Of a stretch of DNA of 42,086 nucleotides, positions 6,394-34,100 are shown one piece after another. Under the pieces are notes generated by a model. It did no database searches. It saw only the letters and a program-made list of their open reading frames with translations, and was not told the origin of the DNA. The first letter of the stretch is position 1, and each line of letters begins with the position of its first letter. Location of the stretch: IMG/VR virus record IMGVR_UViG_3300025674_006158, positions 1-42,086 of that record; one strand, given 5' to 3'. This DNA comes from a virus. Position numbers and translations under genes: made by a program.

Positions 6394-6458
6394 CAAAACG
6401 TCTGCGAGTAGTTGAGGCTTTCGTTTGTTGTAAAACGTAACACTGGGTTACGTCCATT

Positions 6459-6466
6459 TATTTATA
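6459..6466 (-). promoter_or_regulatory. late promoter TATAAATA
   Basis: A perfect T4-type late promoter octamer TATAAATA on the minus strand, just after the end of the glycan operon and about 170 nt upstream of the barrel-like gene B. With the host-type promoter it would allow both early and late expression. Confidence 0.7.
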
Positions 6467-6488
6467 CTACCTTATTTCTTTAGGATTG

Positions 6489-7316: not shown

Positions 7317-7827
7317 TTGGTTCGATGTCAAAAAAGAATACCTGTGTAAGTCTGCTAGTTTCTATACTATTCCCAAAACCAGGAATCGTACTTCTATGAT
7401 ACATTATATCGCCTCTATATGCAACTAATCTATTATAAACATTACCAATGCGGATATCTTCTGCATAGTCTCTGATATCTACTCTATGATAGATTGAAGT
7501 TCCGGCTTTAAACGGAGCATCTGGAGTTAGATATAGGACTGCGGCCCATTGAGATCCAATGTCCCTATGAACCCATGTCTCCGTGTCTTCATCGCATGAT
7601 TGGAAATGGAACGTATCATTATTCCAATTCCATTTTATCTTTGCGTTAAAAATTTCCTCAAATCGTTTTGTAATTCCAGTCTCATACTCCCCAGATGCCC
7701 TATTACTACTTCGTACACCAGGAACATGCTTATCGTATTTGGTGTACTCAAATTCGGTTAAAGCAAGGTTCCTGATGTAGTCAGGGGCATCTAAAAAGTT
7801 ATCTACAACTATTAAATTACGATCCAT
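7309..7827 (-). CDS. DUF6445-like Fe/2OG-oxygenase-fold protein
   Basis: A 172-residue protein beginning with the typical VVDNFLDAPDYIRNLAL. An HRD iron-binding motif lies in WVHRDIGSQWAAVLYL, and a distal His/Arg pair in GDIMYHRSTIPGF...SRLTQVFFF. This matches the DUF6445/oxygenase group often found in cyanophages near glycan genes. The substrate is unknown, and hydroxylation of a sugar or protein is possible. It overlaps both neighbours (16 nt and 8 nt) and so belongs to the glycan operon. Confidence 0.75.
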   Translation of the reverse strand: MDRNLIVVDNFLDAPDYIRNLALTEFEYTKYDKHVPGVRSSNRASGEYETGITKRFEEIFNAKIKWNWNNDTFHFQSCDEDTETWVHRDIGSQWAAVLYLTPDAPFKAGTSIYHRVDIRDYAEDIRIGNVYNRLVAYRGDIMYHRSTIPGFGNSIETSRLTQVFFFDIEPNG

Positions 7828-8669
7828 CCTTCACAATAGAGATCTTTAGTGTCCTTATCTGCATAGTCTGGACCAAACCACATCTTAGGTGCAACAACAG
7901 GTCCACGACCGTTCTGCAACCAGGCACCCCACCAGGACAGAGAAGAGTTAGCAATGACAGCACCGCTGCAGAGACTCATGATACAGAGGTCCACAAAGGG
8001 TTCATACGAACCATCCTTATACTTGTCCGTAGGTTCAGAGACCATGAACCTATCATCCTCAAACATCTCCTGTTCTTTAACCCACTCAGGAGAGTCAGAA
8101 CAGATGATTACGGGTTGATCCTCAGGGAAGTTCTTCAGAGCTTCCTCGTAATAGGCCAACGGCTGTGGTGGATGTTGTGACGAACACTGCGTATACGACC
8201 ACTTAAATCCCCTAGCATCGACAAGGTTAGGATCACCCCTACGAACATGAAGAAAGAGAGGCGCTTGATCAAGAGAACCCATAAGTTCCTTGACAGGGTT
8301 GAGGATCGAATCGTGGAAGGTGAAGTCTTCTCTAATCTCATTTTTGATGTTAGCAAAGTACTTCTCTGTCTGGAAGAATCCAAACAAACTCACATCGTTG
8401 GGACACATACGATGAAGTTCTTCATCGAAGTGAAAATGTTTTTCAACAACGACAGGAGCGTGTCCATTATCTAGGACGTGAAGATTTCTCCTCGTCACAT
8501 TGGGAAGAGTAAAAGCTCTATGCAGACTATAGTTATCCACACGATTGCTTTCAAAAGGAGGAATACCAAATTCGTATCCACGCATTGCGGCAATACCTCT
8601 CACCGCAGCATACTGGAACATCTGGTTTCCCAGTCGTCCCAGATTACCCATATTATTAAAGGCTAGCAT
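7812..8669 (-). CDS. GT11 alpha-1,2-fucosyltransferase-like (paralogue 1)
   Basis: A 285-residue family 11 glycosyltransferase. It has the N-terminal GRLGNQMFQYAAVRGIA motif, the GDP-sugar-binding FLHVRRGDPN, and the C-terminal ANSSLSWWGAWL. All three are textbook for this family, and the HxRRxD motif is intact. Such enzymes transfer L-fucose (or the close analogue L-galactose) from its GDP form. It is one of three tandem GT11 genes in the operon and overlaps the next gene upstream by 14 nt. Confidence 0.93.
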   Translation of the reverse strand: MLAFNNMGNLGRLGNQMFQYAAVRGIAAMRGYEFGIPPFESNRVDNYSLHRAFTLPNVTRRNLHVLDNGHAPVVVEKHFHFDEELHRMCPNDVSLFGFFQTEKYFANIKNEIREDFTFHDSILNPVKELMGSLDQAPLFLHVRRGDPNLVDARGFKWSYTQCSSQHPPQPLAYYEEALKNFPEDQPVIICSDSPEWVKEQEMFEDDRFMVSEPTDKYKDGSYEPFVDLCIMSLCSGAVIANSSLSWWGAWLQNGRGPVVAPKMWFGPDYADKDTKDLYCEGWIVI

Positions 8670-9492
8670 TTAATTCTTTCCCCCGTCGTTTGATGTAGTC
8701 AAGTGTTGAATAGTATTTTGTAAGACTTTCTTTGTCTTGTTTTCGAATCCAGTTCCAAAGACTATCATTAGCTTGGAACTTAGGATTATGATAGTGGGAA
8801 TTGAAAGTTCTACCATGTTCAAAGTGATAGATGTCATCAATGACTCTACCAACTTTAAATCCAAATAGATTTAGGCGATAATAAAACTCACAATCTTCTG
8901 CTCCCCAAGAAATGAACTCTTCATTCCAAAGACCAGCAGATACCTCACATGATTTGGTGATCATCTGACCCCAACCAATAGAGGATGGGATACGAACTTT
9001 GTTATCCTTTAGAACATCAAAGTCAAAGTCACTTCCATCATGAGATGAAAGGAACTTATCTAACAGTTGGTCACCATAGTTAACAGCCCACTGATAGATT
9101 CCGCATCCAAAAGGATAAACAGCATCAGAGCCTTCTTTAGTGATGGAATGGTATGCAAGTTCATGACTATTCTTAGGTACAACAACATCCACATCATGAT
9201 TATACACGATTGGAGTATCTGCGGCTACACAGAGATCATTGAGAATTCTAGTCTTATGAAAGAACTTCTCTTCACTCTCCTCAAAGATATGTTTGAGTTG
9301 ACTTGTGTCACCAACATACTTTTTAATTTGAGGAAGAGCATACTCCTTGAAATTAGAAGTGGTATCTACTTCTTTGATTAGAACTTTTGCCTCTGGAAAG
9401 TTCTTAAGTAGATACGTTACTGATGTAATTACATTGCGGAGACGATCGTCCGTCTCAATTCGACAAGGCAGGAGATAAGTTAGATCTTTCAT
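8656..9492 (-). CDS. GT2/GT7-like glycosyltransferase
   Basis: A 278-residue GT-A glycosyltransferase. The N-terminus (DLTYLLPCRIETDDRLRNV) is the family 2-like nucleotide-sugar domain, and the metal-binding acidic motif appears as YNHDVDVVVP. The galactosyltransferase-type C-terminal signature FISWGAEDCEFYYRLNLFG follows, then a HFEHGR segment. The sugar transferred cannot be read from sequence. It overlaps both flanking GT11 genes by a few bases. Confidence 0.85.
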   Translation of the reverse strand: MKDLTYLLPCRIETDDRLRNVITSVTYLLKNFPEAKVLIKEVDTTSNFKEYALPQIKKYVGDTSQLKHIFEESEEKFFHKTRILNDLCVAADTPIVYNHDVDVVVPKNSHELAYHSITKEGSDAVYPFGCGIYQWAVNYGDQLLDKFLSSHDGSDFDFDVLKDNKVRIPSSIGWGQMITKSCEVSAGLWNEEFISWGAEDCEFYYRLNLFGFKVGRVIDDIYHFEHGRTFNSHYHNPKFQANDSLWNWIRKQDKESLTKYYSTLDYIKRRGKELNASL

Positions 9493-10385
9493 TCTGGAGT
9501 CACTGGGGTTGGGTCATTGTGTACCTTCACCCATCTTTCAGGGATCATATCCTTCATGTTGTAGTGTGCGTATGCAGGACCGAACCAAGGGTCAGGAGCG
9601 ACTACCTTAACGTCAAGACCCTGCAACCATGCGCCCCACCAACTCAGAGAAGAGTTAGCGATAATCGCACCACCACACATACTCATGAGACAAAGGTCAA
9701 TGTAGGGGACTGAGGCACCGTCTCCGAACTCTTCATAAGAAGCGTCAGAGAAATAGAATCGATCACCCTGCAACCAAGACTGTTCCTTGCACCAATCAAT
9801 AGTATCAGAAACAACAACGACTTTCTTGTCGTCTGGGAACATCTTTAAAGCTTCAAGATAATATTCAGCTTTACAGAGCGGGTGGTATTCTTGGACCATC
9901 TGATAAGACCACTTCTCCCCTCTGCGCCCAGTAAGATTTGGAGAACCGCGACGAACGTGCAAAAAGATGCACTCATCACGTCCACCAAGAGAAGCAATAA
10001 ACTCTTTACACGGCTCCGAATACGCCTTCTTAAAAGTGAAATCCTCACGGATAGACGAGGCGATGGCCTCGAAATACTTTTCTGTTTGGAAGTTGCCTGA
10101 GAAGTTTGTGTTATCTTCGCATTCATTGAAAATCTGTTCGTTGAAGTGCATGTCACGATACTCAACCTTCTTGGCGAAGAATGGTTCCCCAGTATTTTTA
10201 CTGAGGTCACAGTTGGCGAGTTCAAAACAATCAAATAGGCCGTAGTTATCTAGTCGATCTGCGTCGGGACCAGGAATGATCCAGTCGAATCCACGATTAG
10301 CGGCAACGCCACGAACAAAAGCATACTGAAACATCTGGTTACCCAGACGACCTTCGTTGCCAAGACCCTGAAATGAAATAGACAT
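9489..10385 (-). CDS. GT11 alpha-1,2-fucosyltransferase-like (paralogue 2)
   Basis: A 298-residue GT11 protein with GRLGNQMFQYAFVRGVA, the GDP-binding region FLHVRRGSPNL and ANSSLSWWGAWL. The acidic residue of HxRRxD is Ser here, unlike paralogue 1. Base composition seems more GC-rich than its nitrilase neighbour. It overlaps the next gene by 4 nt and lies 7 nt after the nitrilase stop. Confidence 0.9.
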   Translation of the reverse strand: MSISFQGLGNEGRLGNQMFQYAFVRGVAANRGFDWIIPGPDADRLDNYGLFDCFELANCDLSKNTGEPFFAKKVEYRDMHFNEQIFNECEDNTNFSGNFQTEKYFEAIASSIREDFTFKKAYSEPCKEFIASLGGRDECIFLHVRRGSPNLTGRRGEKWSYQMVQEYHPLCKAEYYLEALKMFPDDKKVVVVSDTIDWCKEQSWLQGDRFYFSDASYEEFGDGASVPYIDLCLMSMCGGAIIANSSLSWWGAWLQGLDVKVVAPDPWFGPAYAHYNMKDMIPERWVKVHNDPTPVTPE

Positions 10386-10392
10386 CTATTAT

Positions 10393-11247
10393 TTACCTCA
10401 AAAGTTTAACATAGGGATACTCATCGGACATTCTTCCGTCATAGTTTTTGTACTCTTGTGCTGTATTCAATTCTATATCACAATAAAAATATTGTCTACC
10501 TTGTCTAGGAACGTTTGTTTGCCACCCCATAAAATTAAGAACTCCACTAGGACTAGAAGTAATAGATTCGTTTATTAAACTTTCATCACCATTCCAGTTC
10601 CAAGGAACACAGGAATCAACAGTAATTAAATTTGATTGACTTTTAAAAGCCGTCATTCTCAAAAACCCTTCACTATAACTAGAAAAAACATCATTGCGTT
10701 TATCATTTTTATTCCACTTCATACCATTAGTGGCATGAAATATAACAGATAATCCCCTATCTACAAGGTGTCTTTCACAAAAAGCAATTCCTAATTCTTC
10801 AGCTGCACCCCACATATCATTACAAATCATACCAATAGCCCAGACTCCTGATTCCAATTCAAAATATCGAACAGGATCGTCATTAAGTCTACCAAGGCAT
10901 CGGTCTTGTGAAATACAATAGGTCTTACGAGTTATCGTATTTAATTTACTAGACTTGTCATAATGTCGGATTTGATTCCTATGAATTAATCCAATGGATT
11001 CTTTTTCTTTTGTAAGTACACCCAAATGTAGTCCAACACCACGTTGACATTGTTCTATTTCTTTGAGAGCACTAGATATTTCTTCGTCCTTTTCTTGCCA
11101 TCCATCACAATATCCAGAGAGAGCTCCCTCTGGGGTCAAAAGATGGTCAACTCTATTTTGTTTTGCCCAATCTAAAGCCTTTAGGATCTCTCTCTTATTG
11201 GATTGAATATTTGGTCCTACAGGAATTTGAGCTCCTGCTATACGCAT
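10393..11247 (-). CDS. nitrilase-superfamily amidohydrolase
   Basis: A 284-residue carbon-nitrogen hydrolase. The Glu-Lys-Cys triad is visible: Glu40 in LLTPEGALSGY, Lys98 in HYDKSSKL and Cys142 in GMICNDMWG. Members hydrolyse amides or nitriles, or release ammonia from glutamine for a partner synthetase. Glutamine-dependent NAD synthetases have this domain fused at the N-terminus. Here an NadE-type synthetase is encoded two genes upstream in the same operon, so a split glutaminase-synthetase pair is possible. The gene is visibly AT-richer than its neighbours, hinting at separate acquisition. It shares one base with the GT11 gene before it (TAATG). Confidence 0.85.
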   Translation of the reverse strand: MRIAGAQIPVGPNIQSNKREILKALDWAKQNRVDHLLTPEGALSGYCDGWQEKDEEISSALKEIEQCQRGVGLHLGVLTKEKESIGLIHRNQIRHYDKSSKLNTITRKTYCISQDRCLGRLNDDPVRYFELESGVWAIGMICNDMWGAAEELGIAFCERHLVDRGLSVIFHATNGMKWNKNDKRNDVFSSYSEGFLRMTAFKSQSNLITVDSCVPWNWNGDESLINESITSSPSGVLNFMGWQTNVPRQGRQYFYCDIELNTAQEYKNYDGRMSDEYPYVKLLR

Positions 11248-12107
11248 TACTTACTCCAATCTAAAGTTTCCCAATATGCGGGTACGATTTGACTGGTGTC
11301 GAGATGAGACATAGCAGTACCAAACCACTTCTCTGGATTGGGTGCTACAACTTTACCACGACCTTTTTGTAACCAAGCGCCCCACCAAGAGAAGGAAGAG
11401 TTGGCAATAATTGCACCATTACAAAGACTCATCAGACACAGATCAACCTGAGGTAGAAGAGTGTTCTGCATCTTGCCAGTGCCATCAATGGTCTGGTACT
11501 GATACCTCTCAGGATTATCATTGAACATGAATCTATCCTGTTTGAAGAACTCCTGAGACTTGCACCACTCTAGATCATCAGTGAATACAAAGCAAGGAGT
11601 ATCTTCAGGGAATTGTTTTAGCGCGTCTTCAAAGAACGAAATGGGAAGGATGGGGTGATACTCTTCTCTCCCAATGTTGTCAGACTGACGAACATGGAGA
11701 AAGATAGGAGGACGATCCAGGCTGTTAATGTACTCCATACAAGGAGTGAGATAATCCTCTCTAAACGTGAAGTCTTCATGGATCTGGTCAGCAATATGAA
11801 CGAAATAGTTCTCGGTTTGCATATAACCATCTAGGTTCACGCCATCAGTGCAGTAGAAAAGACTTTCATCAAAGGCGTGAGTTGTTTCTTGAATTGTCAT
11901 TGCACTATTAAACCCAAGGTTCTCGGGTTTACAGTGAGTCATTTCAAAGGTTTCAAACAATCCATAGTTATCTTTATGGTTGTGTTCCTCAGGTGGAATC
12001 ATCCACTGGAAACCATTATAAGCTGCAATACCTCTGAGAGAGGCGTACTGGAACATTTGATTTCCCAGTCGCCCATTACTCCCAAGGCGATTATAACTAA
12101 TCGTCAA
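11247..12107 (-). CDS. GT11 alpha-1,2-fucosyltransferase-like (paralogue 3)
   Basis: A 286-residue GT11 protein with GRLGNQMFQYASLRGIA and ANSSFSWWGAWL. The HxRRxD region reads FLHVRQSDN, so the second Arg is lost. The start is a TTG at 12107. It gives an N-terminus that aligns with the other two paralogues, has GGAGG 7 nt upstream, and overlaps the stop of the dehydrogenase gene as TTGA. A TTG five codons earlier lacks these features. Confidence 0.9.
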   Translation of the reverse strand: MTISYNRLGSNGRLGNQMFQYASLRGIAAYNGFQWMIPPEEHNHKDNYGLFETFEMTHCKPENLGFNSAMTIQETTHAFDESLFYCTDGVNLDGYMQTENYFVHIADQIHEDFTFREDYLTPCMEYINSLDRPPIFLHVRQSDNIGREEYHPILPISFFEDALKQFPEDTPCFVFTDDLEWCKSQEFFKQDRFMFNDNPERYQYQTIDGTGKMQNTLLPQVDLCLMSLCNGAIIANSSFSWWGAWLQKGRGKVVAPNPEKWFGTAMSHLDTSQIVPAYWETLDWSK

Positions 12108-13255
12108 AGATCTATCCTCCAAACAGGTTCATGAATTTCACTCTTGTTAGTAACGAAAACAATGTTGTCACCGTAGGCATCAATCAAGTCATCTTCACAT
12201 TGAGAAACGACATCATCAATTTCCTCAACATAAACAGTATAACCTTTCTTGAGTAGATCTTCAACCAGTCGAAGTCTAGGACTTTCAACTACCATATCAG
12301 TTCCTTTCTTAAAACAAATGCTTTGAATAAAGAAAGGAAGTTTATCTACGTTCTGTTCGACGCAATAGTTAGCAATGAAATTTGCATGTGCATCGTTGAA
12401 CTTATCCGTAACATCGGGAAGACTATATTCTAGTCCCACGCGATTAGCGTAGTGTCCCAATGCACGGTTGTCTCGGGGGAGACAAGGACCACCGAAGCCT
12501 AATCCGTAACGCAAGTATTTAGACCCCACTCTGGTGTCGTCTCCGACAGCGGAGAGGACGTTATCAATCTCATCACCACAACCAGCGTTGTAGAGAATCT
12601 GACCCATCATGTTTGCATAACTGATCTTATAGGTCAGGAAACAGTTCACACCAATCTTAGTGATCTCTGCTGCTGTACGAGACATTGGATAGAAATGAAC
12701 ATCAACATCTTGAATATCATCAAAGATACCTTCGATAATATCAAATCCTTCTTGATCATCACCACCACAAAGAATCATGTCTGCATTACGCATATCTTTG
12801 AGGATGGAACCCTGAGCAATAAACTCAGGATTATAGTAAACTCGAAGACCCCTGTCCTTTAATCTCTCCTGAACTGTGTCGGAGTACCCAGGATTCGTGG
12901 TACAACCAATAACAAAGATCTTGCCATCAAGGTTAGGAGAGTCTTCTAGGTCTTGTACAACCTGTTCGACATACTGAACATCATAAGAACCATCTTCAAG
13001 AGATGGAGTGGGAACGAAGGTAAAGATAACATCAGAGTTACGAATAACATCCCTGTTACTAACAGTAGCAGTGAGATTCTCCGATCGCATTAAAAGATCT
13101 TCTACCTCAGGTTCATTAGAAAAGATCTCTTTGTTATTAAGATCCTGAACGTAATGCCTGTTTACGTCAGAACATTGGACATGATGTCCTGCAGCCTCAC
13201 AAAGGAGAGCAAAACAGATACCAAGTCGTCCTGCTCCGATAACACCGATGTTCAT
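12104..13255 (-). CDS. UDP-glucose/GDP-mannose-type nucleotide-sugar 6-dehydrogenase
   Basis: A 383-residue protein. It has an N-terminal NAD-binding domain (GVIGAGRLGICFA), VPTPS, the conserved YNPEFIAQGS block, and a catalytic Cys in FGGPCLPRD. The family oxidises the sugar C6 alcohol twice to a uronic acid. The exact substrate (UDP-glucose, UDP-HexNAc or GDP-mannose) is not evident. It overlaps NadE (TAATG) upstream and the GT11 gene downstream. A GGAGG precedes its ATG. Its product could be the acid that is amidated by the adjacent synthetase-like enzyme. Confidence 0.93.
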   Translation of the reverse strand: MNIGVIGAGRLGICFALLCEAAGHHVQCSDVNRHYVQDLNNKEIFSNEPEVEDLLMRSENLTATVSNRDVIRNSDVIFTFVPTPSLEDGSYDVQYVEQVVQDLEDSPNLDGKIFVIGCTTNPGYSDTVQERLKDRGLRVYYNPEFIAQGSILKDMRNADMILCGGDDQEGFDIIEGIFDDIQDVDVHFYPMSRTAAEITKIGVNCFLTYKISYANMMGQILYNAGCGDEIDNVLSAVGDDTRVGSKYLRYGLGFGGPCLPRDNRALGHYANRVGLEYSLPDVTDKFNDAHANFIANYCVEQNVDKLPFFIQSICFKKGTDMVVESPRLRLVEDLLKKGYTVYVEEIDDVVSQCEDDLIDAYGDNIVFVTNKSEIHEPVWRIDL

Positions 13256-14016
13256 TATACCTCCAGTTTAAAAGTAGGAATGGGATTCATTTTATGTTGA
13301 TTTTTACAGTTAAACTCATGCAAGATTTTAACTGCTGGTCCAGTGCCATGTTCCATGGCATACTCAAGGTCTTCATAAGATGCACCGATCTGATCTTCAT
13401 CAGTACGACCATCTTCCCACAGACCATCAGTGGGTTTTGCATTAAGAATCTCTGGAATTACTCCAACAAATCGTCCGAGTTCTCTGACCTCGGTTTTGTA
13501 AAGGTCAGCAATAGGGGCGATATCAACACCACCATCACCATACTTAGTATAAAAACCGACTCCATAATCTTCTACCTTGTTACCAGTACCAACAACAATA
13601 CCATTAACGGATGCAGCAACCTGATATAGGGTCATCATTCTCATACGAGACTTACTATTTGCCCTGGCCATATCATTGATGGTGTATTCCACTCCAAGAT
13701 CAGCCGTAAGTTGTTTGATAAACTTAGTAAAAGGCTTTGTAAGATCTGTCTTAAGAACTGTCACATTTGGATAATTCTTTTCCAACCAGAATAGATGGGC
13801 ATCAGAAAGAGTTTCCTGTTCAGGACTCTGATTGAGTGGCATACCCATTGCATAGACAGGAAGTCCAGTCTTTGCAGCTAGAGTAGAAGAAACGGCGGAA
13901 TCAATCCCACCAGACACTCCTACAACTAGGGATTCAATATTGTTGTCACTACAGTACTTACAAAGAAAGAGAGTAATATCGCAAGTTACTTTGAGATAAT
14001 CACTAATTCGATTCAT
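13255..14016 (-). CDS. nadE: NadE-type NAD(+) synthetase (ammonia-dependent size)
   Basis: A 253-residue ATP pyrophosphatase of the NadE family. The PP-loop is VVGVSGGIDSAVSS (residues 32-45). NDMARANSKSRMRMM, VVGTGNKVED, the metal-binding TKYGDGGVDIAPIADLYKTEV and the TDGLWEDGRTDEDQIGASY segment follow. NadE adenylates nicotinate adenine dinucleotide and replaces the acid with an amide using ammonia. No glutaminase domain is fused, but a separate nitrilase is in the operon. Two roles are open. It may refill NAD during infection, or it may amidate a uronic-acid sugar made by the neighbouring dehydrogenase. Sequence alone does not decide. Confidence 0.9.
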   Translation of the reverse strand: MNRISDYLKVTCDITLFLCKYCSDNNIESLVVGVSGGIDSAVSSTLAAKTGLPVYAMGMPLNQSPEQETLSDAHLFWLEKNYPNVTVLKTDLTKPFTKFIKQLTADLGVEYTINDMARANSKSRMRMMTLYQVAASVNGIVVGTGNKVEDYGVGFYTKYGDGGVDIAPIADLYKTEVRELGRFVGVIPEILNAKPTDGLWEDGRTDEDQIGASYEDLEYAMEHGTGPAVKILHEFNCKNQHKMNPIPTFKLEV

Positions 14017-14800
14017 CTTTACGTGTGGCGAGAATAACAGTGTTTTCGTAGTCTTTACCTACGTCAAAGGTGTAATTTTCTTTCACCTTATCTATGAAAT
14101 CATTATAGTAGAAATCATTAAAATTGACAAGATTGTAGATAATGTAAGCAAACTTAGAATTTGCGACCAACTTATCATAGTATTCCATCTGGGTCTCTAC
14201 ATTGCACTCAGAGAGAGCATAGTTGCTGATGAAGAGGTCGATGTCTTTGATCTCTTCGTACTCAGTGCATGGAATACATTTTACCTTATCTTTGATATCT
14301 GGGAACTGATCGATGTACTTTCGTTGCAAAGCAGAGACTTCTGGAAGGTCAATCAGAACATACTCATCAAACTCACAGACAGTACTGAGAACCTTACACA
14401 GTCCACCATATCCACCACCAACTTCTACAATGCGACCAATCTCTGCATCATTACAGAGAAAAGAGATCTCAAAAGTGTTCTTAATGTACCTAGCAGTGGT
14501 AGGAGAAATCATTCCCACACCAGAGTACATGTGTACCTCGGGATTACCATACTTATCATTCTCTTTAAAACCAGCAAGGTTACCAAAGAGTGCAGTCTCA
14601 TTCATGTCAACAGCCATGTTCAGGTACTGTTCACCCTGAGACTTGAGGACATGTTCTAGAATAGTCTTATACTTGGGATTACTTTTGAAGTTAGCAAAGG
14701 CTTGATCATCCTCTACAGCTTCAATGCAAGCAGCAATATACTCATCTGCAATCTGAGTTTCTGCTTCCCATCCTTTACGGTCTTGTACTGTGGTCGTCAT
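14003..14800 (-). CDS. putative sugar O-methyltransferase
   Basis: A 265-residue protein resembling the 'putative sugar O-methyltransferase' family. The N-terminal half is family-specific (YLNMAVDMNETALFGNLAG, then GVGMISPTTARYIKN). The SAM-binding Rossmann motif is IVEVGGGYGGLCKVLS, followed by YVLIDLPEV and an FISNYALSEC segment. It would cap or modify a sugar of the glycan. It overlaps NadE by 14 nt and the GT10 gene by 4 nt. Confidence 0.85.
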   Translation of the reverse strand: MTTTVQDRKGWEAETQIADEYIAACIEAVEDDQAFANFKSNPKYKTILEHVLKSQGEQYLNMAVDMNETALFGNLAGFKENDKYGNPEVHMYSGVGMISPTTARYIKNTFEISFLCNDAEIGRIVEVGGGYGGLCKVLSTVCEFDEYVLIDLPEVSALQRKYIDQFPDIKDKVKCIPCTEYEEIKDIDLFISNYALSECNVETQMEYYDKLVANSKFAYIIYNLVNFNDFYYNDFIDKVKENYTFDVGKDYENTVILATRKDESN

Positions 14801-15753
14801 ACTGTTACGGGCCTCTGGTTTCTAAGTGGATCTAATTGAACTAGGTAGTTCTTGTACATATAGTCTTCTGCAGTTCTCATTTCCTTAGCAATATTGAAGT
14901 TCTCTTCAATAGCATCTTTCTTTGACTCATAGTATTCTGGAGTCAACTTGTCCCAAGGAATATTTTCATGGGGTTGATTCTGATCAAGGAAAATGATACC
15001 CTCATGATTAAAATACTGTGCAACTCCTGCAGTACCATAGTACACAGGAATGGTTCCACAGGCAAAACAATCAGTTAGTTTCTCTGTGAAGTAGGTTGGA
15101 TAATTTGCGTTCTCAACAGCAAAGGAGAACATATAATCTCTAAGTGCTCTAGACTTTTCCTTAAGAGGAAGTTCTTGAGGAAGTCCCCAACCAAACAAAT
15201 CATCACCACCAAACTTATTCCAGTATTCCTGTACTACTTTGAGGCGACGTTGATGTCCCACAGTGTATCCTTTGTTAGATGCGACCATTGAGACGAGCTT
15301 AGACTTGGGATAGAGGTCTCTGTCCATGACCCAAGGAGCAGCATTAGAGAGGCAATAAAGAAATTTACCGTCAGGACCCGCCTCGTGAGTGAGTCTTTGG
15401 TCACAAGTAAAGATACCATCCACACGACTAGCAACAAAATCATAGTTGTCCTCAATGAATTTGTACTGTTCAGGAATGATCTCCCTAGACTCTAGTAACC
15501 AAATAAACTTTGGAAGATTACTGGTATCTTCCAAAGCTTTCAAAGCAAAATGATTTACATAGAGGTTACAAAGTCCAGAACCATCATGAACCCATCTAGT
15601 ATAGACGGATCTATTGTTAGCAGATGTAGATGGTTCTAAAGAATCATTACAAATTAAATTGATTGGAAACTTATTCTCTGGTCCCAAAATAGGAAGGTCT
15701 AAACCTCCAGGGTTCTGACGTGCTTGTCCAAGAACCTCTTTAATATCACTCAT
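14797..15753 (-). CDS. GT10 alpha-1,3/1,4-fucosyltransferase-like
   Basis: A 318-residue family 10 transferase. The diagnostic C-terminal donor-binding block FAVENANYPTYFTEKLTD, CGTIPVYYG and FLDQNQPHENIPW is complete. The N-terminal acceptor domain includes NLYVNHFALKAL and FIWLLESREI. Such enzymes use GDP-L-fucose and can accept GDP-L-galactose. With a GDP-mannose 3,5-epimerase in the same operon, L-galactose is a reasonable donor sugar, though this is inference. Confidence 0.9.
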   Translation of the reverse strand: MSDIKEVLGQARQNPGGLDLPILGPENKFPINLICNDSLEPSTSANNRSVYTRWVHDGSGLCNLYVNHFALKALEDTSNLPKFIWLLESREIIPEQYKFIEDNYDFVASRVDGIFTCDQRLTHEAGPDGKFLYCLSNAAPWVMDRDLYPKSKLVSMVASNKGYTVGHQRRLKVVQEYWNKFGGDDLFGWGLPQELPLKEKSRALRDYMFSFAVENANYPTYFTEKLTDCFACGTIPVYYGTAGVAQYFNHEGIIFLDQNQPHENIPWDKLTPEYYESKKDAIEENFNIAKEMRTAEDYMYKNYLVQLDPLRNQRPVTV

Positions 15754-16594
15754 GGTAATGCTTCATCTCTCGATATACGTTTGCGATACCCTCTTCGATA
15801 CTTGTTTTTGGTTTCCACCATTTAGTAATAAAGGGGTCTGCTTGGTTGCGAGCATCTTTCTGAACAGTGTCTTTGGAGTCCGCAGGTACAACCTTAACTT
15901 CTTGACCATCAGCAGCAAATAGATCTTGGATAATGTTTCCAACTTCCAGAATGCTTGTACTGACAAAAGAAGTAATATGAAGAGGGTCAAAAGAGGTGAA
16001 GTCATCGTAATTTTCCATGACTGCCTCAAGAGCCTCACAGCAATCTTCTGCGTAGAGAAACTCTCTTTGTTCTGTACCATCTGTCATCATGTCGATGACA
16101 CCGTTCCTAAATCCCTTTACGATAAAGTCTGTAATGACGTGGGCTTTTTCCATGTCATTCTCAATACCATACACGTTCCAGAACTTAACAATCTTGCCAC
16201 CAAGCGACTCAGTATATAGTTCACCAACTCTCTTCATCACACCGTAAGGAGAGTAACTCATGCTACTCATCTGGGAAGATGCAAACACAAAGGGAGTCTT
16301 GAATTCTTCAAGATACTGAAATGCATTTGCCATCAACCTGGCATTATTATTGATGAAGTTGAAGGTGTGTTGATACTTCTTCAGGTAGTGGGAACCACCA
16401 ACATCAAAGGCAAGGAAGAAACAGAAATCAGTATCCACAAGTGCATCTCGAAGATTCACATTGGGGATACGAGTCATATCCTGCCAATCTGCATTAGCAA
16501 CATCAAACTCAACTACAGTATGTCCTTTTGCTTTCAAATACTGGGTCAGGTAGGCACCCACCTGACCAGCAGATCCTAAAATGGTAATCTTCAT
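15746..16594 (-). CDS. NAD-dependent sugar epimerase/dehydratase (extended SDR)
   Basis: A 282-residue extended short-chain dehydrogenase. The nucleotide-binding motif is GSAGQVGAYL, the catalytic Ser lies in FASSQMSS, and the Tyr and Lys in YGVMKR. KFWNVYGIEND follows. It acts on a nucleotide sugar (epimerase, dehydratase or reductase), but the exact substrate cannot be told. I chose ATG 16594, which overlaps the previous stop as ATGA, rather than a TTG 6 nt upstream. It could complete the nucleotide-sugar pathway begun by the 3,5-epimerase. Confidence 0.85.
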   Translation of the reverse strand: MKITILGSAGQVGAYLTQYLKAKGHTVVEFDVANADWQDMTRIPNVNLRDALVDTDFCFFLAFDVGGSHYLKKYQHTFNFINNNARLMANAFQYLEEFKTPFVFASSQMSSMSYSPYGVMKRVGELYTESLGGKIVKFWNVYGIENDMEKAHVITDFIVKGFRNGVIDMMTDGTEQREFLYAEDCCEALEAVMENYDDFTSFDPLHITSFVSTSILEVGNIIQDLFAADGQEVKVVPADSKDTVQKDARNQADPFITKWWKPKTSIEEGIANVYREMKHYHE

Positions 16595-17187
16595 GCCCAA
16601 TCAATATCGTGCTTAGAACCAAAGTTTACAAGTCCAGTACCACTCATGTGACCAACTGGAGTCACATCAATCTTGGGTTCTTCAATTGCATCCCACATGT
16701 CCTGAACCTCAGGCCAACCAGGACCAATATCATCCAGAAGCATGATACCTTTCCAACCTTTCTCGTTCAAGAATTCCATCATCTCAACTTCTTGAACACC
16801 GTCATGGGGATCAACATCGATCATGATGATAGAAATGTTATCCCAATCAAGAGTTTCATCCTCACGGAAGTCTTGAATCTTGAAAGTGATATTCTCTTTC
16901 TTGATAGCAGAGCTAGCACCCTGTTCAACCAGATCATAACTGATAACTTGGTTCTTATCGTTGTAAGAAAGAGCAAGTGCAGAACCTCCTGTACGGGTTC
17001 CAACGTCAAGGATGGTGGTGTTTTCAAACTGACTGGAGAGCCATGCATAGAGACGATACTCGCTCTGTCCTGCAGTCAACCAGTCGTTAGGATTGATGGA
17101 TTGTTCCTCAAGAGCAGACACATCTAGTGCCCGCACTGCATCCTTATCAATTCGAATAGTCTTTTTAGTCAGTGTAGAATTAGGCAT
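16591..17187 (-). CDS. class I SAM-dependent methyltransferase
   Basis: A 198-residue protein with SAM-binding motif I TILDVGTRTGGSALALS, an acidic motif near VISYDLVEQG, and IIMIDVDPHDG followed by GIMLLDDIGPG. The two Asp-rich strands resemble metal-assisted O-methyltransferases of sugar gene clusters. It is the second gene of the operon and overlaps both neighbours. Methylation of a sugar hydroxyl is likely. The acceptor is unknown. Confidence 0.8.
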   Translation of the reverse strand: MPNSTLTKKTIRIDKDAVRALDVSALEEQSINPNDWLTAGQSEYRLYAWLSSQFENTTILDVGTRTGGSALALSYNDKNQVISYDLVEQGASSAIKKENITFKIQDFREDETLDWDNISIIMIDVDPHDGVQEVEMMEFLNEKGWKGIMLLDDIGPGWPEVQDMWDAIEEPKIDVTPVGHMSGTGLVNFGSKHDIDWA

Positions 17188-18226
17188 TTACAAGTTCCTT
17201 AGATGTAGTTTCAGATTCCTTACGGGATTTAATTTGTTCAGAGATCCAGGCATAAGTGATACGAATGCCTTCCTCTAGAGATTGAGAATAATCCCAACCA
17301 AGTTTCTCACGGATGAGATCGTTATTGGAGTTACGTCCACGGACACCAAGAGGTGCATCTAGTTTGTGTCGTTTCTGAACCACTTTACCAGATACCTTAG
17401 CGGCAGTCTCAACCAGTTGGTTAATCGTTACCATTTCCTCAGAACCAATATTAACTGGTCCCATGAACTCTCCGTCCATCAGTCGTCGAGTCGCTTCAAT
17501 GCATTCATTAATGAACAGGAAGGAACGAGTTTGTAGACCGTCTCCCCACACCTCGATGGATCCACCTGTCTCTGGGAGGTAAGCGACTTTACGGCAGATT
17601 GCAGCTGGAGCTTTCTCCTTTCCACCTTCCCAGGTTCCTTCTGGTCCAAAGATATTATGATACCTAGCAACACGAACAGGGATCCCATAGTTACGATTGT
17701 AAGCAAGGAAGAGACGCTCAGAGAATAGTTTTTCCCATCCATACTCGGAGTCGGGGTTAGCTGGGTATGCGGATTCTTCACGGCAGTCAGGGTTGTCAGG
17801 ATCCAGTTGATTGTGTTCTGGGTACATGCAAGCAGAAGAACTATAGAAGATCTTCGTTGCATTTACATTATTAGTTTCATTATAATCTCTAACGGCATCC
17901 AATACGTTCAAGTTAATGGATGCGGAGTTGTGCATGATATCGGCGGAATGTTCATCTGTGAAGATGTATCCTGCTCCACCCATGTCAGCAGCAAACTGAT
18001 AAATCTCATCAAACGGTTCGGAATCAGGAGAGATGATGAGTTCCTTAACTCTAACAGCATCCCTCAGGTCAGCTTGAACAAAGTCATCTGCTGCAGATAC
18101 ACTGAACTCAGGGTACTTAATATCGACCCCACGAACCCAGTATCCTTCAGAACGAAGACGTTTTACCATGTGACTTCCAATGAACCCACCAGCACCCAGA
18201 ACGAGTGCAGTTTTACTATTTGCCAT
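17180..18226 (-). CDS. GDP-mannose 3,5-epimerase-like protein
   Basis: A 348-residue extended SDR that matches GDP-mannose 3,5-epimerase far beyond general SDR features. It has GAGGFIGSHMVKRL, FAADMGGAGYI, the catalytic Cys in SSSACMYPE and the Tyr/Lys in YGWEK. RYHNIFGPEGTWEGGKEKAP, WGDGLQTRSF and the C-terminal GVRGRNSNNDLIREKLGW complete the pattern. The enzyme makes GDP-L-galactose (and GDP-L-gulose) from GDP-D-mannose, as known from plant ascorbate and polysaccharide synthesis. It is the first gene of the glycan operon, behind a late promoter motif, and would supply the donor for the GT10/GT11 transferases. Confidence 0.9.
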   Translation of the reverse strand: MANSKTALVLGAGGFIGSHMVKRLRSEGYWVRGVDIKYPEFSVSAADDFVQADLRDAVRVKELIISPDSEPFDEIYQFAADMGGAGYIFTDEHSADIMHNSASINLNVLDAVRDYNETNNVNATKIFYSSSACMYPEHNQLDPDNPDCREESAYPANPDSEYGWEKLFSERLFLAYNRNYGIPVRVARYHNIFGPEGTWEGGKEKAPAAICRKVAYLPETGGSIEVWGDGLQTRSFLFINECIEATRRLMDGEFMGPVNIGSEEMVTINQLVETAAKVSGKVVQKRHKLDAPLGVRGRNSNNDLIREKLGWDYSQSLEEGIRITYAWISEQIKSRKESETTSKELVNA

Positions 18227-27293: not shown

Positions 27294-30182
27294 ATGGCTA
27301 GACAGGGAATTTTCACTGGATTTACGCCGAATGATGGTCTGGGAGATTCCCTCGCATCAGGTGCTGTAAAAGTAAACGCCAACTTCCAAGAGATTTATGA
27401 TGCTTTTGGTGATGGAAATAACCTGTCTCCAGGAGCAGGTGCTGGCGGTACATGGTCAAAGGCAAATACATACGGAATTAGTACAAGTAAGTACGTAGGC
27501 ATTGGAACTGACTTGCCTACATCTCAACTACATGTTGTTGGCAACTCACTCCTACAAGGTATCACCACTGGTACATTTGTTGGTGATGGATCTGGACTAA
27601 CAGGCGTTACTGCAACTGGAGATGGCGTTATCTTAAAAGATAACGGAGTACAAAGAGGTGTAGCTCAAACTCTAAACTTCGGTGACAGATTAAACGTCAG
27701 TAACGTCTTCCAGGGTGACGTAGATATTACTGTTGCAGATTACGTTTCATATGCAACTAATGCAGGATTCGCAACCTATGCACCAGTCGCTGGTATTGCA
27801 ACACTCGCAGACAATGCGACAACCGCAGGTGTAGCAACATATGCACCTCTGGCAGGTATCGCAACGTTTGCAACAACCGCAGGAATCGTAACCTATGCAG
27901 GTGCGTCTGGTGTCGCAACTAATGCAGGTGTTGCTGAGTACGCAAAACTGGCAGGTGTATCTACTTATGCAGTAACAGCTGGAGTTTCTACACTAGCTGG
28001 TTATGCAACTTCTACTGGAATTTCTACAGTAGCAAGAAACTTGACTGGTAATCCATCTATTACCATCGAGAACATCAATTCCATCACTGGTATTGTTACG
28101 GTTCCTGGTCAAGGCAGTAAGATGCGCTTTGACTTCGACTCCGTTGCCGACCTACCCCCTGCAGTGCAGTGGAGAGGTATGTTCGCTTATGCAAATAACA
28201 CCAAGTCACCATACGTATCTTTTGGAACAACCAACGGTGGATACCAGGGGTGGAGAAGACTCCTAGCCGAAGACATCTACGGTAACTATGAGACTACAGG
28301 TGTTATTACTGCAACTAGATTTGCTGGTGATGCATCTGGATTGTATAACCTACCATCAACCGATGCGATCTGGAGATCCAATCCAACTGGTATCGTTACG
28401 GCATCGAACGTAGGTATCGGAACAACAAATGCAGAAGAGAAGTTAGTTGTACTAGGAAACTTCCTACTCAAAGGAAGAATCGTTGGTGCTGCAACCACTA
28501 ACATTCTACCTTTCCTCTATGCAACGTATGCAGATCTACCAAGTGCATCCGATTATCACGGTGCATTCGCTCATGTCCATGAGACAGGTAAGGCATATTA
28601 TGCACACAGTAATGCATGGGTAGAACTAGTCAACGTAAGTGCAGGTGGTACTGTAGGTACAGGAACCGAAACTTACAACGTTGGACACTTCCAGGCAGAC
28701 CAAGCAAATATCCTAGGTGTTGTAACTGCAACCAATTTTGTTGGTGACGGTTCTGGTTTAACTGGAATCACCGCTTCTGGAACTGGTATTGAAATCAAGG
28801 ATGAGGGTAGTGTAGTTGGTACTGCAGGAACCATCAACTTCGTTGGCAGTGCAGTCACAACCACATTCGGTTCAGGAATCGCAACCGTAACCATCAGTGG
28901 ATCTGGAGGTGGTGCTGGTGTACTGAACGATCTGACTGATGTTGTTACCAGTGGAGTCCAACTCAATAACTATCTGAGATATAATGGATCTGTATGGACT
29001 CCAGTTGCAGGTATCAGCACACAGAATGCTGATAATGTAACACTAAACTTCGGTACGTCAGACGATCTCAGACTATATCATGACGGAACTAATAGTTGGA
29101 TCACAGATTCTGGATCTGGTTCTCTATTCCTAGATGGAAGTGATGTTTTCCTTCAGAATGGAGGATCCACAAAACTCCAAGTAACCAATGGCGGACTGAA
29201 CGTAACTGGTATTGTTACTGCTACTGGATTCTCTGGTGACTTCTACGTCACTGAGTCTGTAGATGACGATCAGAACTATAACCTAATGATGTTGAACACC
29301 ACTGCGGGTGGTGATGCATACAGGGGAACCATGGTTGATGCTGGAGGCATCACCTTCAATCCAAATGACAATACACTTAGGTTGAGTGGTTCTATTACTA
29401 TCCAGGGTGTATCTGGTCAGATCGATTGTACAAATGTTAATGCAACAGGAATCATCACTGCAAATACTTTCTATGGAGATGGTTCCAATTTAACAGGCGT
29501 TAGTGGTGGTGGCATCGGTACAGACGGAAGTGTAAATACCACTGGTATTATTACCGCTTCTTCTTTTGTTGGCGATGGTTCTGGTCTGACTGGTGTTGTT
29601 GGTTCTGGATCTGGTGTCATCATTCAAGATTCTGGATCTCCAGTTGGTACTGCAGGAACAATTAACTTTGGTACAAACCTCACGGTATCTGCAGTTTCTG
29701 CTGGTGTAGTTACTGTAACTGCAAGTGGAGGGAGTGTTGGTAGTGGTGGAACATGGGGAGTTTCAGTCACAGGTATTCATACCAATAAGAGTGTTGGTAT
29801 TGGAACAGATATTATAGCCGGCACACAATCCCTACAAATTAGAAACACAGTATTTGAAAGTCACGGAGTTGCGTCTTCTTCCTTTACCGCTTCTGCTGGA
29901 ACACCACAAGAAATTGATGTGTTTGTCGATGACTTTATGACTGCAGAATATACCATACATATTATTAATGGCAATAATTACCAGGCACAAAAAGCACTGG
30001 TAATGCACACGGGAGCAGGAACAACTGCATACGTATCTGAATATGGTGTCATGTTTGAACCCAATAGAATTGCTGATGTATCAGTAGCACTAGCTGCTGG
30101 TCAGATTCAAGTAAGTCTAGTTCCTCTATCTGGAATATCTGGCGTAACAACATATAGATTCACTTCACAAAAAATGCTTTGA
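27294..30182 (+). CDS. large repeat-containing virion (fibre-like) protein
   Basis: A 962-residue structural protein. The N-terminal segment MARQGIFTGFTPNDGLGDSL with VKVNANFQEIYDAFGDG is a common start of cyanophage virion proteins. A unit of the form I/V-TA-x-F-x-GDGSGLTG recurs near residues 93, 339 (degenerate), 478, 721 and 754. Residues 150-246 are an Ala-rich stretch with periodic GIATYA/GVSTYA units. Trp-containing segments (near 290-325 and 410-445) may be carbohydrate- or fold-related. The C-terminus (SSSFTASAGTPQEIDVFVDD to FTSQKML) is a frequent virion end module. A fibre or baseplate decoration binding the host surface is likely. The exact place in the particle is not known. Confidence 0.8.
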   Translation: MARQGIFTGFTPNDGLGDSLASGAVKVNANFQEIYDAFGDGNNLSPGAGAGGTWSKANTYGISTSKYVGIGTDLPTSQLHVVGNSLLQGITTGTFVGDGSGLTGVTATGDGVILKDNGVQRGVAQTLNFGDRLNVSNVFQGDVDITVADYVSYATNAGFATYAPVAGIATLADNATTAGVATYAPLAGIATFATTAGIVTYAGASGVATNAGVAEYAKLAGVSTYAVTAGVSTLAGYATSTGISTVARNLTGNPSITIENINSITGIVTVPGQGSKMRFDFDSVADLPPAVQWRGMFAYANNTKSPYVSFGTTNGGYQGWRRLLAEDIYGNYETTGVITATRFAGDASGLYNLPSTDAIWRSNPTGIVTASNVGIGTTNAEEKLVVLGNFLLKGRIVGAATTNILPFLYATYADLPSASDYHGAFAHVHETGKAYYAHSNAWVELVNVSAGGTVGTGTETYNVGHFQADQANILGVVTATNFVGDGSGLTGITASGTGIEIKDEGSVVGTAGTINFVGSAVTTTFGSGIATVTISGSGGGAGVLNDLTDVVTSGVQLNNYLRYNGSVWTPVAGISTQNADNVTLNFGTSDDLRLYHDGTNSWITDSGSGSLFLDGSDVFLQNGGSTKLQVTNGGLNVTGIVTATGFSGDFYVTESVDDDQNYNLMMLNTTAGGDAYRGTMVDAGGITFNPNDNTLRLSGSITIQGVSGQIDCTNVNATGIITANTFYGDGSNLTGVSGGGIGTDGSVNTTGIITASSFVGDGSGLTGVVGSGSGVIIQDSGSPVGTAGTINFGTNLTVSAVSAGVVTVTASGGSVGSGGTWGVSVTGIHTNKSVGIGTDIIAGTQSLQIRNTVFESHGVASSSFTASAGTPQEIDVFVDDFMTAEYTIHIINGNNYQAQKALVMHTGAGTTAYVSEYGVMFEPNRIADVSVALAAGQIQVSLVPLSGISGVTTYRFTSQKML

Positions 30183-30195: not shown

Positions 30196-33100
30196 ATGTT
30201 TTCTACAGAAACAAATTACGAAGAATGGATTCAAGAGAGAAGAATTTCTTTTGAATCTTACAAGGATGAACTACCCAAAGTTCCAACAGAACCAGAGGCA
30301 AAGAAAGAGTATGTAGTTCTGTGTACTTCTAAGGAAGATTGGGAACACGTCCATGAAATTTTGATGCAGGACGGCACTCTAGAAGATAATATTCCAACCA
30401 GACACGTAGATTGCACTAGTGAATGTAACCACAGTGATGTGAGAGGAATATATCTTTTAGACGATGATGAAGTTGCTCAACTGAAAAACCACCCAAAAGT
30501 ATTGGGAGTAAATATCAATCACGGTTCTTATCCAGGATCTTTCATGGATAACCCAGATGATCTAACCTGTGAATTCAGTACACCATTAACAAAGACTAAC
30601 AGATATCCAAGTAATGTTTGGTGTCAAGGTAGCATTAATAGAAATTTTTATCTGAACTTTACACCAGGAGCAGATCTCAAAAATAGAGGATCGAGTCAAA
30701 TAATTAGACACATGCAAAGGGAAAGTCCCTTTGTAAGTCTATGGTGGTCAAACCCAGACAACCTAAGTGGAATTGCCGCAACACCAGGAGCATATGTCCA
30801 ACTAGGCAATAGACTGCCACAATATGGAACTGGTAAGGATGTTGATGTAATTGTATGTGACCAGGACATGTGGTTTGGCCACATTGAATTCCAAAATACT
30901 TTAGGTATCAGTACACTTACTTCTGCTGATGTTCCATCAAATTATGTTGGTGGCAATGCATTATCCAATCGTGGCATATCACCGAATTCTGGTACTTGCG
31001 ATCTATTAGATCTAACTTTAGATGCACCAATGTATCTCGATCCAGACTTCTTTAATGCTCGACTTGATGTATACTGGAATGGTCCAGTTGGTAATGTTGT
31101 TGGTGATGGTAGTGATTTCTTCAAGCGTGAAGTTACAACTAACGGTGTAAGGATTATGGGTGCAGGCACTGTTGGTGGACAAACAGCAGTACCAGATGCT
31201 TGGTTAGAAAAAGTTGGTCGTATGTTTGAACTGTTTACAAATCCATCAGGTCCAGCTGGTGTTGCAACAGTAGGCATTAATACAACATTCCAAAAAGGGT
31301 TGATTAACACACTGAGTGGTGAAACAGGAACTTATCACGCAGGCTTACCGACTATACAAAGAGTAGCAAGAGGTGCAGGAGCAGATTACACTCCAAACTT
31401 CTTAACTGACGAAGGCGTTGTATTTTGGAACCTAACTAACCTGTTTGACACTCACGTGCAAAATGACATGGTGTGGTACTTGAACTCAACTGGTAGTGGA
31501 TACGGCGACGGCGACCTAGACGCACAAGAAGTTATTGAACACGTATTCCACACACTTCATATGCACGGGTTACCTGCAGATGATATAAAACTATATCCAT
31601 ATATAAGTTCCGATTGGAACACTGGTGATTTGTATGCCGCAATGGAAGAAGCATATGATGCAGGCAAATGGGATCCATCAGGTTATCAAAGTCCATCAAA
31701 TGCTTGGAAAACAGATGCAGATGCATTTGAAGTAGCCGCAAAAGAATACTTATACTTACTAAACTTCTGCATGTTTGAATACACAGAACTTTGGGAAGGT
31801 GGAAGTCTTGCTCCAGAATGGACAGACGACATGCGTACCCAACTGGGTATTCAAGCAAATAATCCATTGGGGTATGCATTCTTTAACACATGGATGGCTC
31901 CAATTATCACTAAGCCTTCACTTACTACTATTAGGAGCATATTCCAAGACGGCAACACACCAGACCAAGACGATCCAACTCTAGCAGGAGCATCAGGATA
32001 TGTTGTGGATAATAATGGTAGAACGGAGACACGATGGGATGGAACTACCGTTCCTACAGATGTAGCAGCAAGAAACTGGTGGAGAAACAACAGTACAACT
32101 TATAGATCTCCCAAATATGTATCCGTAGGTATAGGATCAGGTACGGCAGTTCCAGGATCAGCACAAGACTTTGGTGCAATTCTAGTTAATAATGGGTACA
32201 GTAGACAAGTGTGCAATGGAAATCACACTACATATCAAACAGGAACTGGTTACCATGCAACTCCATGTGCTTCTCAAGCATATGGCAGACAATATGGTTG
32301 GGCATATAATTCAAACAAATGGTTCTTGAATCACTATGGAACTAACAACAGTGGATGGGAAGTTGGATTTGACCAACAGAAAGTGTTCCACCAATGCAAA
32401 CCAATAAATCCAGCATATGGCACACAAGATCCAACAATTTCCTCTAACAGTTGGGGACATAGACTTACTCCAGACTCTACTGGATGGATTTCTCATAGAA
32501 ATAATGTAACTGGTGATGGTACGGGTCAGGCAAAACTAGATGGATCCGATATGGTTCAATATAATAGTAAACCAAACTGTTTAGTTGCATATAATAATAC
32601 CGATATGGGAATTGCATATGCTACAGACAATAGTGTAATTCAAGCAGGAAAAGAACTAGTTGATTCTGGTGTTATCTATTGTTATGCTGCAGGAAACCAC
32701 GACCAAAAACAAGTTAGAGGAGATCATCCAGATTTCAACAACTACTACAGTGATCAAAATGAAGATATAGAATCTGCTAGAAGAAATGCCTTGTACAGCA
32801 GTATGTTTGGAACTCAATATTATACTTTCTACAATAGACCTGGGTTCCCAGGACATATTGGAGAGAGAACTGATGATAATGGAGTATCTTACTATAAGAC
32901 AATTGCTGTAGGTGCTCTTGATGAAACTGGTGTGACCTCTGGTGTAGGAACTTACTATAGAGAAGCCAAAACATTCTATACTAATACTGGCAATGCAGTT
33001 GATTGTTGGACCTTATGTGATAATAGTCTTTCTGCATGTGATGATAATACTGGTACTAGATACAATCGATATGATGCTTTCTACACTCTTGGTGGTATAC

Positions 33101-33474
33101 AGTCTGTCGAATCTGAAGATAGATTATTCAATGGAACCAGTTCCGCAACTCCTATTGCCGTTGGTCTCATTGCAACCAAGTTAGAATATAATAGACATTG
33201 GACTTGGGCAGATGTTAAGGGTTGGTTCAACACTCTGGGTTCTTTTGAGAGTATTAGAGACGCCGCTGGGACACTCGCAGTTTATACTGGAACTGAAGGT
33301 GGTAGTAATATAAATGACACTAATTACTTAGATTCTTATAACCTACAGGGATCTGATGCTCCTTTATTATGGGACGCTCCAACAGGAAATGAACCCAATA
33401 TATCTAAACTAATAGAAGGTGGATCTGATCCGATTTCCTTTACTGGCAATATAACAATTAAGATCGTAGAATAA
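30196..33474 (+). CDS. virion-type subtilisin-like serine protease with large insertion
   Basis: A 1092-residue protein. Residues 36-108 resemble a subtilase propeptide (YVVLCTSKEDWEHV...YLLDDDEVAQLKNHPKVLGV). The S8 triad follows in order: Asp222 (VIVCDQDMWFGH), His687 (GYHATPCASQ, in place of HGTxCA) and Ser982 (NGTSSATPIA). SSNSWGH at 749-755 and oxyanion Asn834 (AAGNHD) are present. An insertion of about 400 residues lies between Asp and His. It contains a His cluster, EVIEHVFHTLHMHGL (445-459), that might bind metal. The protein sits among fibre genes, so it may mature structural proteins or cut host surface proteins. The protease fold is convincing and activity is likely. Confidence 0.82.
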   Translation: MFSTETNYEEWIQERRISFESYKDELPKVPTEPEAKKEYVVLCTSKEDWEHVHEILMQDGTLEDNIPTRHVDCTSECNHSDVRGIYLLDDDEVAQLKNHPKVLGVNINHGSYPGSFMDNPDDLTCEFSTPLTKTNRYPSNVWCQGSINRNFYLNFTPGADLKNRGSSQIIRHMQRESPFVSLWWSNPDNLSGIAATPGAYVQLGNRLPQYGTGKDVDVIVCDQDMWFGHIEFQNTLGISTLTSADVPSNYVGGNALSNRGISPNSGTCDLLDLTLDAPMYLDPDFFNARLDVYWNGPVGNVVGDGSDFFKREVTTNGVRIMGAGTVGGQTAVPDAWLEKVGRMFELFTNPSGPAGVATVGINTTFQKGLINTLSGETGTYHAGLPTIQRVARGAGADYTPNFLTDEGVVFWNLTNLFDTHVQNDMVWYLNSTGSGYGDGDLDAQEVIEHVFHTLHMHGLPADDIKLYPYISSDWNTGDLYAAMEEAYDAGKWDPSGYQSPSNAWKTDADAFEVAAKEYLYLLNFCMFEYTELWEGGSLAPEWTDDMRTQLGIQANNPLGYAFFNTWMAPIITKPSLTTIRSIFQDGNTPDQDDPTLAGASGYVVDNNGRTETRWDGTTVPTDVAARNWWRNNSTTYRSPKYVSVGIGSGTAVPGSAQDFGAILVNNGYSRQVCNGNHTTYQTGTGYHATPCASQAYGRQYGWAYNSNKWFLNHYGTNNSGWEVGFDQQKVFHQCKPINPAYGTQDPTISSNSWGHRLTPDSTGWISHRNNVTGDGTGQAKLDGSDMVQYNSKPNCLVAYNNTDMGIAYATDNSVIQAGKELVDSGVIYCYAAGNHDQKQVRGDHPDFNNYYSDQNEDIESARRNALYSSMFGTQYYTFYNRPGFPGHIGERTDDNGVSYYKTIAVGALDETGVTSGVGTYYREAKTFYTNTGNAVDCWTLCDNSLSACDDNTGTRYNRYDAFYTLGGIQSVESEDRLFNGTSSATPIAVGLIATKLEYNRHWTWADVKGWFNTLGSFESIRDAAGTLAVYTGTEGGSNINDTNYLDSYNLQGSDAPLLWDAPTGNEPNISKLIEGGSDPISFTGNITIKIVE

Positions 33475-33494: not shown

Positions 33495-34100
33495 ATGGCA
33501 GATAAACCATTTGGTGTAAGACAACTGAATATAGTTGGTGCAGCAGGTACACCTACGATTGAAAGTGCAGCAGCACTAAGAATTGGTGGACAACAGGTTG
33601 CAATCACCACTAATACTTCTGTTGCTGGTGTCGTAACTGCAGCATCATTTTATGGTGACGGATCAAATCTGTCTGGAGTTGCGGTTCCAGCAAACCTAAC
33701 TGCAACTACTTTAGATGTATCTGGTATTTGTACGGCTGGTAGTTTTGTTACGGACCTGATCTCAGGTGATGGAACCAGTAGAGGATTTGCAACTAGATAT
33801 TACATCACTGCAGATGGTTCTACCAGTTATCGTTTTGCTGGTCCTGGTATGCCAAACACTGTGGCAAATCCAACTCTCTATCTAATGAGAGGATTTACAT
33901 ATATCTTTGAAAACTCCACTGGTAGTTCTCACCCATTCCGTATCCAATTCACAGGAACAACAACTGGCGTTGGAACATACGTTAGTGGATCCAATCAAGG
34001 GATTCAGGTATTCACAATCCCCCATGATGCACCAGCAAATTATCAATATCAATGTACCATTCATGGTGGTATGATAGGTTCATTCGTAATCCCTAATTAA
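33495..34100 (+). CDS. virion protein with C-terminal cupredoxin domain
   Basis: A 201-residue protein in two parts. Residues 1-90 carry the fibre-type repeat VTAASFYGDGSNLSGV. Residues about 102-201 form a cupredoxin: YYITADGSTSYRF, FTYIFENSTGSSHPFRI, FTIPHDAP and YQYQCTIHGGMIGSFVI. All four type-1 copper ligands are in place: His146, Cys187, His190 and Met193, with C-x2-H-x2-M spacing. Copper may stabilise the fold or take part in electron transfer on the virion. AGGAA lies 4 nt before the ATG. Confidence 0.82.
   Translation: MADKPFGVRQLNIVGAAGTPTIESAAALRIGGQQVAITTNTSVAGVVTAASFYGDGSNLSGVAVPANLTATTLDVSGICTAGSFVTDLISGDGTSRGFATRYYITADGSTSYRFAGPGMPNTVANPTLYLMRGFTYIFENSTGSSHPFRIQFTGTTTGVGTYVSGSNQGIQVFTIPHDAPANYQYQCTIHGGMIGSFVIPN

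Follow-up and report, generated by a model that had tools for sequence, protein, structure and literature searches.

The gene at positions 30196-33474 (+) of the window, i.e. the complete 42,086-nucleotide stretch of viral DNA analyzed here, encodes a predicted subtilase that carries an autonomous module in the loop between its catalytic Asp and His residues. This insert constitutes a separate domain family, which is undescribed in the databases searched, has a predicted fold without counterpart in the PDB and moves as a sharply bounded cassette of ~0.9 kb among the virion proteins of marine phages. In ocean Actinomarinales, the same module is found as a putative surface lipoprotein.

A cyanophage subtilase between gp9-like neighbours

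The gene is a single open frame of 1092 amino acids according to an ORF check, and the antisense frame is rich in stops. Its product matches Peptidase_S8 with an E-value of 1.7e-5 (24.7 bits; Pfam gathering cutoff 21.8) and phrog_9158 with an E-value of 3.8e-72 over residues 665-1019. The latter family covers the subtilase, yet is listed as having an unknown function. When the backbone was aligned with other phage subtilases, D222 (30859..30861; this and all further features of the gene lie on the + strand), H687 (32254..32256), N834 (32695..32697) and S982 within a GTSSATP motif (33139..33141) fell into the catalytic columns in intact order. This column-by-column agreement bears out the Asp222/His687/Ser982 triad proposed in the initial annotation and adds the oxyanion-hole Asn834, so that the gene product can be assigned, from its sequence, as a subtilase with an intact Asp/His/Asn/Ser tetrad. 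In addition, an N-terminal domain (residues ~36-125; 30301..30570) is conserved in the five phage subtilases compared and is suggestive of a propeptide; the Inhibitor_I9 profile gave a weak match in one of these five proteins (E 0.078). Backbone, tetrad and N-terminal domain are shared with the cyanophage subtilases of T4-GC 292 / phrog_9158, i.e. SSSM7_232 of S-SSM7, PSSM2_297 of P-SSM2 and Sf-FS3_197, which lack the nested module, however. A related subtilase also forms the start of a virion structural protein of S-TIM54 (L005:6004-12426, 2140 aa), which is encoded near a portal gene.

The window contains a D1 photosystem (Photo_RC) gene as well as tail genes, and its DNA matches mostly Synechococcus phages, which identifies it as a fragment of a marine cyanophage of the Synechococcus type. 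Directly upstream of the subtilase gene, a 962-aa tail protein with a tail fibre/gp9-connector-like N-terminus is encoded (27294..30182, +; phrog_6942, phrog_677; 58% identity to Sf-FS3_198), and the downstream gene (33495..34100, +) specifies a 201-aa protein that corresponds to the C-terminal part of gp9, the baseplate wedge tail fibre connector (phrog_677, 8.9e-42; 67% identity to Sf-FS3_196). The gene order is identical in phages Sf-FS3 and S-SSM7, and the virion-linked setting in the fibre region that had been assigned to the protein is supported by these virion and baseplate neighbours. The gp9-like sequence itself is split around the subtilase gene, with its N-terminal part upstream and its C-terminal part downstream, an arrangement that is likewise kept in both phages. 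A 1411-aa relative from S-SCSM1 is labelled as a virion protein in its record, and in the corresponding study, mass spectrometry detected 45 proteins of the virion (PMC9602691). The 1092-aa protein is presumably present in the particle of the virus investigated here as well. Elsewhere in the window, the Photo_RC gene adjoins a gene for a tryptophan-halogenase-like flavoprotein (785-1864 and 2087-3355, both on the - strand), and the region 5900-18200 (-) holds sugar-nucleotide/glycosyltransferase genes (GDP-mannose dehydratase-like, UDP-glucose dehydrogenase, GT10 and GT7-like) that probably form a cluster for surface glycan modification.

Boundaries of the nested module

The extent of the insert can be read from the syntenic orthologues of Sf-FS3 and S-SSM7. 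In an empty-site alignment, these are uninterrupted at the insertion site (...DPDWFNA-DP..R..RWDGT...), whereas the window protein reads ...DPDFFNA-[316 residues]-DNNGRTETRWDGT... Hence, the insertion comprises residues 289-604 (31060..32007), which start with RLDVYWNG and end with ASGYVVD; module homologues and the structure model support the same assignment. The initial annotation had already described a triad-splitting insertion, but with a size of more than 400 residues. While the insertion is real, its true size is 316 residues: the D222-H687 span amounts to 464 residues, about 148 of which lie outside the insert and represent the loop length of the subtilase family itself. The idea that a second domain is nested inside the subtilase was confirmed both by the empty-site orthologues and by homologues on unrelated backbones. 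An intein was considered as well and rejected, since the ends are wrong, with neither a Cys/Ser as first residue nor a terminal His-Asn followed by Cys/Ser/Thr.

Mobility among phages and cellular relatives

Relatives of the module were collected by four IMG/VR scans, the widest of which yielded at least 286 stretches. Modules about 79-86% identical to that of the window occur in S-RIM2 (SWTG_00062), Syn33 (Syn33_094) and RN05-S, in proteins referred to as 'baseplate wedge subunit/initiator' that share the module with the window protein but have an unrelated backbone without any subtilase. The S-RIM2 and Syn33 carriers, whose modules show 81-86% identity, are proteins of 1.7 kaa encoded between gp9 and gp8, an interval that in S-CREM1 contains a stand-alone subtilase. 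The module-bearing S-RIM2 protein (NC_020859.1) is annotated merely as a baseplate wedge subunit. Baseplate proteins of the Syn33 type also contain YHYH (PF14240), a predicted metal-dependent hydrolase with conserved His that is a promiscuous domain of tail and baseplate proteins (PMC7824862). The module and YHYH resemble each other in this promiscuity and in their conserved His residues, but their motifs differ and no sequence relation was found. The YHYH profile gave no match to the window subtilase, while it does match the baseplate-type host L054.

A host survey of 160 distinct full modules revealed a subtilase backbone in 91 hosts, in which the module occupies four different positions (N-terminal to Asp, in the Asp-His interval, in the Asn-Ser interval, and C-terminal to Ser). 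The tetrad DHNS is found in 74 of these 91 proteins, the remainder being mostly incomplete ORFs. The non-subtilase hosts belong to numerous unrelated protein classes, among them carriers of LamG, Ig, YHYH or baseplate domains; in addition, the module is encoded by itself in ORFs of 324-334 aa (L086-L088). The subtilase of Marine virus AG-345-F15 (L004:5956-8415) lacks the module and instead harbors a cupredoxin-like insertion (YYYNCEYHGPMQG) in another loop; a similar motif is present in 11 of the 91 subtilase hosts of the module. The subtilase backbone thus accepts several kinds of inserts.

Several comparisons document the movement of the module. Between the window protein and L041, the modules are 82% identical, whereas the subtilase backbones share merely 33-37%. 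L120 and L130 have backbones with 79% identity; the loop that holds the module is not the same in the two. At the DNA level, modules from unrelated hosts are up to 97.5% identical over 903 bp, and the homology ends at the module edges. A quick module tree requires the module to have changed at least 24 times between subtilases and hosts of other types, a number calculated without shuffled control that may be inflated by truncation of ORFs at contig edges. Every viral record checked contains one copy, including six records of at least 170 kb (up to 300 kb), and each isolate phage genome has a single module place. With dN/dS values of 0.07-0.18, the module is under strong purifying selection. 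As a peculiarity of L130 (4480-7500), the usual module start (DPEYNNG) is placed after the module end rather than before it; perhaps, this cassette edge was permuted or re-cut.

In marine Actinomycetota (Ca. Actinomarinales, Acidimicrobiia), the module occurs with 60-63% identity in proteins that have a lipoprotein-like signal, as read by eye, and no protease. Close or distant (about 24% identity) relatives are encoded in 19 of 42 genomes of Ca. Actinomarinales, and hhalign connected a distant actinobacterial relative with the module at 99% probability. An even draw of 396 genomes from the actinobacterial phylum gave no match beyond the query's own genome, and a plasmid search for module relatives did not retrieve any. 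For the remaining bacterial phyla, coverage consisted of a single pattern scan over the contigs of their genomes.

Invariant residues and predicted fold

Conservation was counted in an alignment (A5) of 64 diverse members with 38-86% identity to the window module. Invariant in all 64 sequences are H381 (31336..31338), D424 in an NDMVW strand (31465..31467), E445, E448, H449, H452 and H455 of an E445-xx-E448-H449-xx-H452-xx-H455 helix (31528..31560), K516, E517 (31744..31746), E541 and D544, ten of which are His, Glu or Asp. Some of these residues may be structural. The family is defined by homology to the A5 profile together with invariant E445, E448, H449, H452 and E517, all of which apply to the window module. 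The distant lipoproteins keep D424, E445, E448, H449, H452 and E517 and have lost H381 and H455. The cluster E448-H449-xx-H452-xx-H455-x-H457 highlighted in the initial annotation is indeed present, but its last position turned out to be dispensable: position 457 is His in 34 of the 64 members, and the relatives from actinobacteria have a Ser there. When the module sequence was shuffled 20,000 times, a stretch of nine residues with four His arose in only 10 cases.

An AlphaFold model built on A5 reached a pLDDT of 93.3 and a pTM of 0.92; an earlier model based solely on close relatives was of middling quality (pLDDT 77) and gave no fold match in the PDB or BFVD. In the A5 model, E445-H455 reside on a single helix (439-457) that follows the D424 strand, and E517 is located on a later helix (508-526). 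Zincins (M1, M48 and others) have, in this order, a sheet, a helix with paired acidic/His ligands and a later helix with a Glu. The order of elements in the module, with a sheet, an active-site-like helix and a later Glu helix, resembles this architecture, but all 64 members have EHxxH instead of the zincin HExxH, and a significant fold or profile match to zincins was not obtained. Against the PDB, the A5 model had no match at E<=0.001, with M1 zinc peptidases at chance level (E 2.6 and 4.9; TM about 0.2). Profile searches of Pfam, NCBIfam, PHROGs and the PDB with the module likewise gave nothing significant, and no paper on it was found among the open-licence papers searched.

Possible roles of the module

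We tentatively favor, at somewhat less than an even chance, that the module is a metal-dependent, enzyme-like surface domain acting beside the protease at the host surface. In this reading, the self-contained domain of ~300 residues that has been inserted into the Asp-to-His loop of a subtilase from the baseplate/fibre region would be extracellular, and the E-xx-EH-xx-H helix could hold a metal together with E517 (and D424 and H381). Displayed on the tail, the module would act on the host surface alongside the protease domain, and two surface-active functions would be combined in one virion protein. Metal binding and catalysis, a substrate and cooperation with the protease are all features that we infer. 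The invariant His/Glu/Asp set, located on one predicted helix and on further segments, lends indirect support to the metal site or second catalytic centre that the initial annotation had considered for the His cluster. Judging from secondary structure and general knowledge, the site may be zincin-like or correspond to an inverted HxxEH with E445 as its first residue, and the module is possibly a zincin-like hydrolase. This reading has to cope with the lack of any significant counterpart in the PDB, whether searched with the profile or with the fold, with EHxxH in place of HExxH, and with the distant lipoproteins that lack H381 and H455. A more far-reaching version, in which marine phages share an extracellular metalloenzyme of a new family and with a new fold as a mobile ~0.9-kb cassette that enters, with one copy per genome, any available tail protein, in most cases a second hydrolase, appears rather unlikely as a whole.

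The main rival is a non-catalytic, perhaps metal-stabilized binding domain, i.e. an adhesin (for a receptor, a glycan or matrix) that directs the protease or the tail to the host surface. It is a realistic candidate, albeit on the unlikely side. The occurrence of the module in lectin-, Ig- and YHYH-bearing tail proteins, in unrelated baseplate proteins and in a lipoprotein fits well, as phage adhesion domains are typically portable in this way. Yet, these domains usually vary fast, whereas the polar cluster of the module is invariant across 38-86% identity at the low dN/dS given above, and its ten invariant His, Glu and Asp residues resemble an active site. In T4 gp37, HxH motifs bind iron, and HxH has been reported in marine phage tails (PMC11705849). 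As H455-x-H457 of the window module is also a His-x-His in a tail protein, a similar iron site in the sense of the Ferrojan-horse idea was evaluated. This highly improbable option was dismissed owing to the variable H457; furthermore, the motif of the module is situated in a predicted helix, and not in a trimeric fibre as in T4 gp37.

The prevalence of subtilases among the hosts could point to a module that regulates the protease as an inhibitor, gate or folding aid near the active site. This is improbable, however, given that module positions vary widely from before the Asp to the C-terminus, that many hosts lack a subtilase or consist of the module alone, and that the relatives in bacteria are lipoproteins that have no protease part. 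A selfish, intein- or homing-like cassette without benefit to the phage would also match the sharp edges at the DNA level and the multitude of insertion sites. Such an element is hardly to be expected with one copy per genome and under strong purifying selection; in addition, bacteria carry the module as a secreted stand-alone protein, its ends (RLDVYWNG...ASGYVVD) are not intein-like, and it is placed in loops of surface proteins.

Implications

Taken together, a widespread, undescribed domain of marine viral tails and ocean bacteria has now been delimited, and its mobility between unrelated virion proteins has been demonstrated with sharp DNA edges. For annotation, this means that proteins labelled 'baseplate wedge subunit' in common cyanophages bear the module and that the unlabelled phrog_9158 is a subtilase. 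Beyond the initial annotation, the existence of an independent mobile family, spread over hundreds of marine phage contigs and actinobacterial lipoproteins, alters the meaning of the nested insert. The invariant positions provide a short list of residues for asking whether phages may bear a second surface enzyme beside the protease.
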